From: Candidatus Bathyarchaeia archaeon
GTDB taxonomy: Archaea; Thermoproteota; Bathyarchaeia; Bathyarchaeales; Bathycorpusculaceae
Assembly: GCA_041447175.1 (NCBI GenBank)
Contig: CP166960.1
Span: 231,118 to 295,117 of the forward strand
Direction of reading: 5' to 3'
Length of the DNA stretch: 64,000 nt
In this document: piece by piece, positions 46,683-50,040 of the stretch
Position numbering within the stretch: position 1 is the first letter of the stretch
Layout of the letters: each line of letters begins with the position of its first letter
Translations under genes and position numbers: made by a program
Notes under the pieces: model-generated
Databases searched by the model: none
Seen by the model: the letters and a program-made list of their open reading frames with translations, nothing else
What the model was told of the DNA's origin: nothing

Positions 46683-46898
46683 ATGTTTGAACAAAACCTA
46701 ATCGGCAAAAAGACCTGCTGTGGTCTAAATAGTTCAATTTTTTACTTGGGCGGGAATCCCAAAGAAAAAATGCCTTCTCCCAGCACAATGTTGTGGCAGT
46801 CAAACAAGATTTTATTGTGTTTGAAAGCTACTTCCACAATTGAATCAGCCAAAAACGTCATGTTTTGTAGACAGAAGGCGAAATACTATGGTATGTAG
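46683..46898 (+). CDS. Possible small protein upstream of Cys-rich gene
   Basis: An ATG at 46683 after AAGGGAAAAAT opens a 71-residue frame that ends by overlapping the Cys-rich gene by 11 bases. It contains five cysteines including a CC pair near residue 12 and no recognisable domain. Overlap with the next start resembles coupling, but the ribosome site is weak and the composition is not clearly coding. It could also be untranslated leader. I list it with low confidence. Confidence 0.25.
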   Translation: MFEQNLIGKKTCCGLNSSIFYLGGNPKEKMPSPSTMLWQSNKILLCLKATSTIESAKNVMFCRQKAKYYGM

Positions 46899-48645
46899 TA
46901 TGAACGGTGGTTGTGATAATAATTGTAACCCTACGGAAGGATTTAAAGGTGGGAAAGGAACCACAATTTGGGGTCCAATACGCTTCACTTTGGGTCCAAA
47001 GGGAAGTCAAACTGACACCAAAACGCTCCATTTCACAGCCACGCAACCTCAATGTTATCAAAATTCCTCTCCCCAAAAATGCAGCGCTTGCAACTTAAGT
47101 TACACAATCAGAACTACCCAAGATTCCGATAACCCTGTCGTATCGTTGTATCTATATCTGAATGGACACACATCAGCAAATGCAGACCCGGGAAAGCGAT
47201 ATCATAGTAGATTAGCTAATCATGACCTCTCGGAAGTTATTGACTTATCTCAATCAATAGATGGATTTGACGGAAGCGGTAACCCTGTTTACAGTTTAAA
47301 CGATCCTGACCTCAACACACTTGAGTTTGTCAACGATGACGAATACGTCAGCGTTACGATCGAAGATTTAACAGTTGTTCGAATATACCCAATGTGCTAT
47401 CTGCCATGTGACGGCAAAAATGCCTGCACTGATGGCATGTGCGATGGTTCTGGTCCATGCGGATCGGAACAGCCATATTCAAAGATCGAAAACGATCCCC
47501 TAGATTCCACACGACAAGATTACCCTTGCAACTACAAAGATTGCGGCAATATTAGTTATACCAAATTTGGTCCCGACAACCACGTTAAAGAAATCTCGCC
47601 CAGTCCCTATGTAAATGCAGTTTGGACTTGGACTAATCCTCCTGATCCATGCTATAATTACGTTAATAAGAAACATTGTTTTTTCAATTTAAACAATGTT
47701 GCTACTAGTGGTGTATCCGAAAATGATGACGTGACTTTTTGGCTCAGACTTAACTACGACCCCACTAACCATCCCGACAGCCCATGGGTGCAATTCTACC
47801 ATCCTACAGGCAATTACCATATAGCTCATGGCGTTGATCTAGCAAACCACCCAACATTATCAGGGTTTTACGATGACAGCCCTAATGGCACAAACACTTT
47901 AGAGTTATACTACGATCCTAATGCCGACGTAGATCTTGTATTATGCGACGGATGTAGCGGTTCATGTCCACCGTATTGTCAGGAAGGAGGAAGCATCGAT
48001 ATCTACCGCACTTACCAGACAGAACCCGTTTATCTGACCATAGAAGCTTCAGTTGCAACAGGAGGAGGATCTATCTCACCGTCTGGCATAGTTCAAGTAG
48101 ATTATGGAGGAAACAAAACCTTCAACATTACGCCGAATACAGGCTACCTCATATACCACGTTGATGTCATGAACGACGGCGAAAACTGGGTTTCACAAGG
48201 AGCAATTAGCAGTTACACATTTATCAACGTCACCAATCTCAAGCATAAAATCAGGGCATACTTCACAAGTTGTGGTACATGCCAAACAGTTTGCCAGACG
48301 GCATGCGTAGTGAGCTGTCAAGAAACATGTCAAATAAGCTGCCAGCCTTGTGAAACTTGCCAGCCATGTGTAACCTGCCAAGATACTTGTCAACTTACAT
48401 GTCAAACGGGGTGCGAAGTAGCATGCCAGTTGCCGTGTGAGTTTTGTCAAATGACCTGTCAATGGACATGCATGGCTGCGTGTCAGCTTTCATGCCAAAC
48501 CTGCAATACCTGCCAAACCACATGCGAACTAAGCTGTCAAACTGGATGTGAAGTGAGTTGTCAATCTGGTTGTGAGGTGTCTTGTCAGTCGCCTTGCATG
48601 GTCTGTCAGCTTCCTTGCCTGTGGAGTTGCCTAATGATACAGTAA
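46888..48645 (+). CDS. Giant Cys-rich protein with CXXX-repeat tail; candidate radical SAM substrate
   Basis: From ATG 46888 (GAAGG before it) the product has 585 residues and no signal peptide or membrane segment. Residues up to about 370 appear to hold two beta-sandwich units, each closing on a Cys cluster (CYLPCDGKNAC and CDGCSGSCPPYC). A unit from about 392 (SVATGGGSISPSGIVQVDYG) resembles the InlB-type bacterial repeat domain, normally extracellular. Residues 462-581 hold 33 cysteines, always two or three residues apart, mostly CQXXC. Codons for Cys and Gln vary freely, so it is not a fresh DNA repeat. A small protein and a radical SAM/SPASM enzyme follow, which points to thioether modification. 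Metal binding or plain disulfides are the alternatives. Confidence 0.75.
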   Translation: MVCSMNGGCDNNCNPTEGFKGGKGTTIWGPIRFTLGPKGSQTDTKTLHFTATQPQCYQNSSPQKCSACNLSYTIRTTQDSDNPVVSLYLYLNGHTSANADPGKRYHSRLANHDLSEVIDLSQSIDGFDGSGNPVYSLNDPDLNTLEFVNDDEYVSVTIEDLTVVRIYPMCYLPCDGKNACTDGMCDGSGPCGSEQPYSKIENDPLDSTRQDYPCNYKDCGNISYTKFGPDNHVKEISPSPYVNAVWTWTNPPDPCYNYVNKKHCFFNLNNVATSGVSENDDVTFWLRLNYDPTNHPDSPWVQFYHPTGNYHIAHGVDLANHPTLSGFYDDSPNGTNTLELYYDPNADVDLVLCDGCSGSCPPYCQEGGSIDIYRTYQTEPVYLTIEASVATGGGSISPSGIVQVDYGGNKTFNITPNTGYLIYHVDVMNDGENWVSQGAISSYTFINVTNLKHKIRAYFTSCGTCQTVCQTACVVSCQETCQISCQPCETCQPCVTCQDTCQLTCQTGCEVACQLPCEFCQMTCQWTCMAACQLSCQTCNTCQTTCELSCQTGCEVSCQSGCEVSCQSPCMVCQLPCLWSCLMIQ

Positions 48646-48677
48646 TGACTTAGCAGAAACATCAGGAGCCAGATAAT

Positions 48678-48863
48678 ATGAGTAAAAAATGCGTAAACAA
48701 TCAATCAACTCCGGTCCGTAATCAACAGAACTCTTCGGTACGGACGTCACCTCCGTTTGGGCAGTCTCTGACTGAGCAGCGGGTCAAGGAAATTGTCATT
48801 GAGTCTTTGATTGCATTAGGCTTGGTTCCCCAACCGCAAAAGAGGAAGACTATCCATGCTTAA
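48678..48863 (+). CDS. 61-residue protein between substrate and maturase
   Basis: AGGAG lies nine bases before ATG 48678, and the end overlaps the radical SAM start by 8 bases, so this is a real, coupled gene. The first half is Asn/Gln/Ser-rich and looks disordered. The second half, SLTEQRVKEIVIESLIALGL, should be an amphipathic helix, followed by a short basic tail. There is one cysteine, so it is unlikely to be the cross-linked product. It might be a carrier, a leader supplied in trans or an adaptor between enzyme and substrate. No family is recognised. Confidence 0.65.
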   Translation: MSKKCVNNQSTPVRNQQNSSVRTSPPFGQSLTEQRVKEIVIESLIALGLVPQPQKRKTIHA

Positions 48864-50040
48864 TCTGCCTGCTAAAATCAAAGAAATGACCGTTTGGGTC
48901 ACCGGCGAATGCAACCTCAGCTGCAAATACTGCTTCGTCTATAAACTCAACCAAAACCCGCCACACGGAAAAATGACCATGCAAACTGCAGATCAACTCA
49001 TACGTTTCTGCACCCAAAACCTAGACCCAAACGGCGCCCTTTGGTTCTTCGGCGCAGAACCATTCTGCAACTTCGACACCCTCAAGTACATAGTTGAAAA
49101 AAGCCACACAGACGGACACAAATGGAACTTTGGAGTAACCACCAACTGCACCTTAGTAACCGAAGACATAGCCTTGTGGATGAAGAAATACAACTTCGGC
49201 GCAACCGTCTCCATTGATGGATCAAAAAACAGCCACGACACCAACCGAGTCTACCCCAACGGGAAAGGCAGCTGGGAAGACGCGTGGCGCGGCTTCTTGC
49301 TACTAAAGAAACATTTCACAAACACGCCGCAACTGCGGTGGACCGTAACCCCGTCCACCGTGAAGGGACTAGCAGACGCCATCAAGTCTTTCGTTGAAGA
49401 ATTTAACCTCACAAGCCTTGCCGTGGACATGGTCTACGAAGCGGAGTGGGCACCTCAAGACTTGGCAAACCTCAGACAGGAACTAGAAATCTTTCGCGGA
49501 TACTACAAAAATTGGATGGAACGGGGGGTTCCAGTGTTTAGCATGTGGGTTCGAGACGCAAACGCCGCAATCACCCAAACAAGAAGGGTCTGGGATTCAC
49601 GGTGCGGATTAGGACAAGGCGGAATATCAGTTGACTACGACGGCTCAATTTACCCCTGCCATAGATTCGTCGACTCACATGAAATAAAGATAGGCGACAT
49701 ATACAGCGGCTTTGCACAAAGTCGCTTAGACTGGATTAAACATTGGCAAAATATAGCACCCTACTGTGAGGTCCCCACGAAATGCTTAAGTTGTAACTAC
49801 AAAAACAACTGTATAGGCGGATGTATAGCCCAAAACTACGACGTCTTCGGTTTGCCACATGTTAACCCCGAAACTTTCTGCACAATTAAACAACTGATAA
49901 CAGACGTTTTCAGTGAACTATGCAAATCTATGCAAACCAACAAAACCTTCCAGAAACTATACGCAAAACCTCCTTTCGAGCAAAAACCAAAACTGCCTCA
50001 AACATCCACAAACTCAACACAGCTTGCGCAAAAGAATTGA
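48856..50040 (+). CDS. Radical SAM/SPASM peptide maturase
   Basis: The 394-residue enzyme has CX3CX2C at Cys19, Cys23 and Cys26 (CNLSCKYC) and FFGAEPFCN in place of the usual GGEP motif. Its SPASM domain starts at Cys250 (CGLGQGGISVDYDGSIYPC) and contains CX2CX5CX3C (CLSCNYKNNCIGGC) with further cysteines up to CTIK. This is the layout of enzymes that form thioether or other links in RiPPs, and of anaerobic sulfatase-maturase relatives. No sulfatase gene is adjacent; the Cys-rich gene is. AGAGGAAG eight bases upstream supports ATG 48856. No separate recognition (RRE) domain is obvious at its amino end. Confidence 0.85.
   Translation: MLNLPAKIKEMTVWVTGECNLSCKYCFVYKLNQNPPHGKMTMQTADQLIRFCTQNLDPNGALWFFGAEPFCNFDTLKYIVEKSHTDGHKWNFGVTTNCTLVTEDIALWMKKYNFGATVSIDGSKNSHDTNRVYPNGKGSWEDAWRGFLLLKKHFTNTPQLRWTVTPSTVKGLADAIKSFVEEFNLTSLAVDMVYEAEWAPQDLANLRQELEIFRGYYKNWMERGVPVFSMWVRDANAAITQTRRVWDSRCGLGQGGISVDYDGSIYPCHRFVDSHEIKIGDIYSGFAQSRLDWIKHWQNIAPYCEVPTKCLSCNYKNNCIGGCIAQNYDVFGLPHVNPETFCTIKQLITDVFSELCKSMQTNKTFQKLYAKPPFEQKPKLPQTSTNSTQLAQKN

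Follow-up and report, generated by a model that had tools for sequence, protein, structure and literature searches.

Crosslinking by radical S-adenosylmethionine (SAM)/SPASM enzymes is known from short peptides and from a few enzyme subunits, and the SPASM enzyme QhpD acts on a protein subunit, in which it joins Cys with acidic residues. The product of the ranthipeptide maturase PapB is a thioether between Cys and Asp or Glu, and Cys-Xn-Asp arrangements with n = 0–6 are tolerated; its auxiliary cluster 1 (AC1) has three Cys ligands and was proposed to bind the substrate thiol (PMC9413430). The positions of the PapB cluster cysteines give spacings of X17, X37, X2, X5, X3, and X18 (PMC10470005). 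Here, we analyzed a 64,000-nucleotide stretch (hereafter, the window) of the genome of a Candidatus Bathyarchaeia archaeon (GCA_041447175.1, contig CP166960.1, positions 231,118 to 295,117), which comprises 2.73 Mb in one contig. The window contains three consecutive forward-strand genes: P0001 (46888–48645), encoding a 585-residue Cys-tailed protein presumed from orthologous loci in related genomes to be a maturase substrate; P0002 (48678–48863), a small open reading frame (ORF); and P0003 (48856–50040), encoding a 394-residue radical SAM/SPASM maturase. We consider it about two-thirds probable that this locus is a mobile protein-stapling cassette, in which a PapB/CteB-like maturase staples the tail of P0001 by thioethers with P0002 as the docking element, and that tailed viruses use the same device.

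The gene layout described in the initial annotation was confirmed at every coordinate. The 585-residue protein, with 33 cysteines in its last 120 or so residues, is followed after 32 intergenic bases by the 61-residue ORF, which the radical SAM/SPASM gene overlaps by 8 bases. Shine-Dalgarno-like sites are also present in the sequence before all three genes, namely AGAAGG (46873–46878) before P0001, AGGAG (48664–48668, +) before P0002, and GAGGAAG (48842–48848, +), lying within P0002, before P0003.

Linkage of the cysteine tail and the maturase

A search of 151 genomes with the enzyme (threshold, E 1e-30 or better) yielded matches in eight genomes, one of which, G077, carried a protein only 30% identical to P0003 that was counted as a different enzyme. 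The remaining seven genomes, including that of the window, contained eight close loci, the nearest named relative carrying the system being Candidatus Bathyarchaeota archaeon DYS_1. The initial annotation had pointed to co-occurrence of enzyme and tail in archaeal genomes as a check, and to another constant neighbor, such as a sulfatase, as evidence to the contrary. A long Cys-tailed protein adjoined the enzyme in all eight loci, and none of these orthologous loci contained a recognizable sulfatase.

The N-terminal beta-sandwich region of P0001 (N-domain) was also found in proteins without a Cys tail. Among 16 N-domain proteins, a maturase was adjacent in 8/8 with a tail and in 0/8 without one. 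The N-domain tree contained four changes of tail state, three of them independent and on well-supported branches, and the maturase accompanied the tail in all three. The window and the same-genus orthologous locus L022 carry N-domains from different branches of this tree despite enzymes of 83–84% identity and tails of 74% identity, and the N-domain closest to that of P0001 belongs to the tail-less L182. Because the enzyme tracks the tail, not the N-domain, over at least three independent switches, the tail, small ORF, and enzyme are, judged from sequence comparison, a mobile cassette that moves as one unit. This joint movement is the strongest evidence that the tail would be the substrate of the enzyme, and it supports the earlier proposal that a radical SAM system modifies a large protein.

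The ratio of non-synonymous to synonymous substitution rates (dN/dS) against L022 was low for both the tail (~0.06, with dS saturated) and the enzyme (0.07). P0002 was 72% identical to its L022 counterpart, with a dN/dS of 0.44 compared with 0.63–0.69 in the other frames of the same ORF. The locus is thus not a product of chance, and the 61-residue ORF is part of the system and not a bystander.

Features of the three proteins

P0003 was assigned as a maturase on the basis of Pfam, NCBIfam, and its nearest solved structure. It matched Pfam Radical_SAM (4e-13) and, weakly, SPASM. It contains the CX3CX2C radical SAM motif CNLSCKYC (C19, C23, and C26; 48910–48933, +), and the SPASM set of cysteines was complete (C250, C268, C310, C313, C319, C323, and C342; 49603–49881, +), with spacings of X17, X41, X2, X5, X3, and X18. 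All ten cluster cysteines, serving the radical SAM cluster, AC1 (with three ligands only), and auxiliary cluster 2, were invariant in 13 maturases. The top NCBIfam model was NF047865 PapB, followed by the QhpD, nif11, and SCIFF maturases. The nearest solved structure was 5WGG (E value, 1.8e-28), with the alignment starting at chain residue 95; 5WGG is CteB (PMC10470005). No RiPP recognition element (RRE) was found in P0003, and an N-terminal RRE is not possible because only 18 residues precede C19 of the radical SAM motif and leave no room for it. The genome also encodes another, more distant radical SAM enzyme of the PapB-like type (160 bits; G000:C1:435750-436730), with no Cys-repeat protein in the stretch examined around it.

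The Cys-repeat tail of P0001 (residues 462–581; 48271–48630, +) contains 33 cysteines, of whose 32 spacings 23 are of four residues, nine are of three, and none is of any other length. The initial annotation had called P0001 a CXXX-repeat protein. The regular, close spacing of the cysteines was upheld, but the tail follows a mixture of CX2C and CX3C and not a pure CXXX repeat, P0003 scored 117 bits against the 350 of TIGR04115, and the PapB type is nearer. Most tail cysteines are followed by Q or E (pattern, [STGA]-C-[QE]). In the eight cellular tails compared, Cys is preceded mostly by a small residue (S, G, T, or A) and followed by Q or E, and eleven viral Cys-rich ORFs have the same register, with a small residue before and Q, D, E, or N after. 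At position +1 after the tail Cys, D/E account for 24% and N/Q for 48%. At position +4, D/E account for 19% and N/Q for 49% in the cellular tails against a D/E background of 13–15%, whereas the viral tails have 31% D/E (twice the background) and 41% N/Q. The D/E content of the viral tails at +4 appears to fit a CX3D/E motif of the kind repeated in PapA, whereas Gln dominates in the cellular tails.

The part of P0001 preceding the tail was divided according to its AlphaFold2 model (m023efe95f3aa; mean predicted local distance difference test [pLDDT] score, 61.5, higher in the strands) and family searches. Its N-terminal region (46888–48030, +) consists of two predicted beta-sandwich domains, and no Pfam or NCBIfam family was matched by P0001 or P0002. 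A fold search with P0001 returned only weak matches, mostly to beta-sandwich proteins, with template modeling scores of at most 0.27 on the query, and was not used. An InlB-like beta-repeat (residues 387–460; 48046–48267, +) was recognized from its modeled strands, its 46–51% identity to two further sites elsewhere in this genome, and the match of the paralogue L182 to Flg_new_2. The tail was modeled as a helix, with pLDDT mostly below 50. No signal peptide of P0001 was visible by eye. Tail-less N-domain proteins of approximately 1,090 residues at L182:5425-8697 and L183:3530-6775 likewise have InlB-like repeats (and PKD in L182), and neither shows a visible signal peptide.

The neighborhood of the N-domain proteins in relatives often includes Pfam group 1 glycosyltransferases and beta-propeller proteins that carry a membrane segment at the C-terminus. 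A glycosyltransferase beginning LRILWHSVAPWIASGYGKTT recurs in this setting in L180, L182, L022, L023, L026, and L027, and three beta-propeller-like ORFs lie just upstream of the cassette in the window. Such a neighborhood possibly represents a glycosylated surface assembly. A role of P0001 as a surface or particle-borne structural protein, in which the stapled tail would form a stiff rod, fits these features.

P0002 is composed of a linker and a conserved helix-like segment (VKEIVIESLIALGLVPQPQKRKTI). In the orthologous loci, the segment VKEIV.E.LIAL.LV...QK.K is conserved in the small ORF between the tailed protein and the enzyme, except in L027 and L028 (both in G067), where the small ORF is fused to the Cys-tailed protein and forms its C-terminal end. 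Because of this fusion in two paralogues, P0002 is probably a docking segment.

Viral and virus-like relatives

Viral cases were collected by whole-genome profile searches of the class and phylum and by an IMG/VR scan for Cys codons at a spacing of three, with follow-ups. Searches with back-translated patterns for viral enzymes closely related to that of Bathyarchaeia found none. The nearest relatives of the Bathyarchaeial enzyme outside this class were encoded by three virus-like archaeal contigs and by tailed-virus contigs, in which the putative substrate is either the C-terminus of a tail protein or a set of small Cys-rich proteins next to tail-fibre genes, and PapB was likewise the top NCBIfam model for five viral or virus-like enzymes (187–231 bits). 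In the first archaeal contig (L039), the enzyme is 41% identical to P0003 and is preceded by a tail-fibre-like ORF, a DUF2341 protein, and three short Cys-rich ORFs, with a holin-like ORF downstream. The second (L041), a contig with tail-fibre families, has the same gene order and an enzyme of 35% identity. In both, the third Cys-rich ORF combines a short Cys segment with a helix-like end weakly similar to P0002. In the third contig (G431; L211 and L228), fibre-like ORFs and two short Cys-rich ORFs accompany an enzyme whose front is fused to a Cys segment. In the SPASM region of this fused maturase (L211:1360-2613), auxiliary cluster 2 lacks its CX2CX5C cysteines.

The tailed-virus contigs were L042, L058, L187, L188, L189, L230, L233, and L234, of which L233 is the L042 contig again. 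Their gene order is a tape measure, a 367-residue protein, and a large protein whose C-terminal part, up to ~300 residues long, is rich in CXXC; where the contig continues, another Cys-rich ORF comes next and then a PapB-like enzyme, with a fibre-like gene after the enzyme in L187 and L188. The enzyme was present in every tailed-virus contig that reached far enough. Since the large protein follows the tape measure, we call it a putative hub from its position, and its PHROG match has no assigned function. Every viral hub found bears a Cys tail, so that no Cys-free hub was available as a control. The Cys-tailed hub, second Cys-rich ORF, and PapB-like gene lie at L187:6150-11372, L188:3738-8960, L189:6681-11494, and L058:5293-10676. 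These genes apparently represent an undescribed phage-tail chemistry.

CxxC repeats are also present on the enzyme itself in L058, L187, and L189. Each of these enzymes has several such N-terminal repeats, of the form CxxCYxCE...D.T.DD (L187:9756-10250 and the corresponding region in L058 and L189), which look like copies of its own substrate motif. The radical SAM motif is CX3CX3C and not CX3CX2C in L058:9120-10676 (CNLSCKYPC) and L189:9983-11494 (CNFRCAYPC), while the related L187 enzyme is normal. Many other pattern hits, among them L080, L086, and L116, have CTNC- or CSDC-type repeats with no maturase match in the locus and were regarded as different; in the viral contigs L080, L086, L111, and L116, the CxxC repeats are long and of the CTNC, CSDC, or CSGC type, with no related maturase in the stretch examined. 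Phage entries in GenBank that carry related radical SAM genes were mostly human fecal contigs and were set aside; two of these cases are probably bacterial because the adjoining short peptide resembles SCIFF. In Phage Phass-1, which is placed in the 'code 15 clade', a radical SAM gene (L190, ~7441, +) precedes a short ORF that contains CNTCNVGCDIQCRTCITCNSC.

In the phylogenetic analysis, the Bathyarchaeial enzymes formed a clade with 99–100% support, which the L039 and L041 enzymes joined at 97/98 and 100/99. All Cys-repeat maturases clustered, with a support of 88/91 for all rows and 87/89 without long branches, which is not firm. A viral origin of the maturase is suggested, but not proven, by the branching of viral rows around the cellular clade. 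As a tentative scenario, which we regard as possible, tailed viruses of archaea and bacteria harden tail-tip and fibre-associated proteins by radical SAM thioether staples, and Bathyarchaeia adopted the viral cassette for their own proteins, with the tail, the docking helix, and the enzyme passing from one carrier domain to another.

Proposed stapling and comparison with known systems

Ranthipeptides are characterized by a thioether that joins Cys to a non-alpha carbon. In the proposed mechanism, which would be ranthipeptide-like, P0003 would bind a thiol of the tail at the vacant site of AC1, and the 5'-deoxyadenosyl radical would take a hydrogen from a nearby residue, so that a thioether closes with the loss of 2 Da each time. 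P0002 would bring enzyme and tail together, standing in for the missing RRE, and P0003 would act repeatedly along the tail. The product would be a large protein with a stiff, redox-proof stapled tail, and tailed viruses would apply the same device to tail-tip and fibre-associated proteins. This reading is supported by the 8/8 co-occurrence, the tracking of the tail by the enzyme, the PapB-like clusters, and purifying selection. It is further supported by the fusion of the small ORF to the substrate (L027 and L028) and of Cys segments to the enzyme (L211, L058, L187, and L189), as well as by PapB as the top NCBIfam model, CteB (5WGG) as the nearest structure, and the similar registers of the cellular and viral tails. 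Several observations weigh against it. PapB is reported to link Cys to Asp or Glu (PMC9413430), yet Q follows most tail cysteines here, and all family scores of P0003 are under the equivalog cut-offs. Three independent switches are too few for a sign test to become significant, a maturase lies on the same contig as L182 and as a fragment without a tail in L027, though not adjacent to them, and the deepest join of the Cys-repeat maturases reached only 87/89.

The same tail could be a metal or Fe-S array, metallothionein-like or electron-conducting, that the enzyme modifies only lightly or leaves alone while modifying something else. Metals are typically bound by CXXC pairs, and the 33 tail cysteines are accompanied by almost no other reactive side chains. 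However, such an array does not need a dedicated radical SAM maturase, whereas here enzyme and tail are gained and lost jointly and P0003 keeps the cluster set that PapB uses for the substrate thiol; we consider this explanation unlikely. It is also quite unlikely that the tail is a disulfide-crosslinked extracellular rod on which the enzyme performs another reaction, such as C–C linkage or epimerization. Closely related SPASM folds do perform several chemistries, and neighboring genes of the host lineage encode surface beta-propellers, but the top-scoring models (PapB, QhpD, and SCIFF) are thioether or Cys-linked maturases, and an oxidizing compartment is not obvious for P0001 because no signal peptide was seen by eye.

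The relatives of the enzyme in virus-like contigs could point to a proviral remnant of an integrated tailed virus without function for the cell. Neither sheath nor PhageMin_Tail tape-measure families were found in the whole host genome, and the neighbors of the cassette in the window (HtpX-like protease, CinA-like, and SAM synthetase-like ORFs) look cellular; therefore, the window does not appear to be a provirus. Strong purifying selection and the lack of any relation between the P0001 N-domain and the viral DUF2341 proteins also make this origin improbable. It is hardly credible that P0003 is a maturase of anaerobic sulfatases, or a SPASM protein activating some other enzyme, that just neighbors a Cys-rich gene, since the detectable similarity to sulfatase maturases (TIGR03942, 93.8 bits) is far under the cut-off of 349 and the constant neighbor in the orthologous loci is a Cys-tailed protein, with no recognizable sulfatase.

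If thioether stapling is correct, the likely target would be a structural protein with a long, repetitive tail that travels between carriers as a cassette, which would provide a new route to irreversibly stapled protein fibres and a chemical modification of virion tail tips. The cassette would point to a protein-hardening device common to archaea and viruses, and the docking helix with its RRE-free enzyme could serve as a tool for stapling added tails. No description of such a cassette, or of such a modification of tail tips, was found in the open-access papers searched.

Among the known systems, P0003 is most like PapB (NF047865; PMC9413430; PMC10470005), sharing the ten cluster cysteines and the SPASM spacing except for X41 in place of X37. 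A Cys-rich, repeated substrate is also common to both, as seen in the Cys-rich neighbor of the enzyme in the eight orthologous loci and in L039, L041, L058, L187/L188, L189, and L211. P0003 differs in its score of 219.7 bits, which is less than the cut-off of 340 and places it outside the NF047865 equivalog, and its radical SAM motif is not preceded by an N-terminal extension. The presumed substrate is the tail of a 585-residue protein and not a short peptide, and Gln is commoner than Asp or Glu after Cys. By its clusters and Cys-rich neighbor, P0003 fits the wider PapB-like kind of radical SAM/SPASM thioether maturase.

The SCIFF maturase CteB (TIGR03974; 5WGG) is the nearest solved structure, but P0003 scored 130.3 bits against a cut-off of 425, and CteB has approximately 90 extra N-terminal residues. 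SCIFF precursors are approximately 45 residues long, in contrast to the 585 residues here; the SCIFF motif CQTSCQSACKTSC resembles CQTGCEVSC in the P0001 tail. The resemblance to the CXXX-repeat system (TIGR04115) is that, in one part of the tail, cysteines recur every four residues, but the score was 117.2 bits, the spacing is a mixture of 3 and 4, and the substrate is matched by no family model. In comparison with the QhpD maturase (TIGR03906), P0003 scored 152 bits against 453, and no dehydrogenase subunits were recognized nearby. Relative to known radical SAM/SPASM crosslinking of Cys, what appears to be new in this system is the large-protein substrate, the separate docking segment, an enzyme free of an RRE, the mobility of the cassette, and its use in virus tails.

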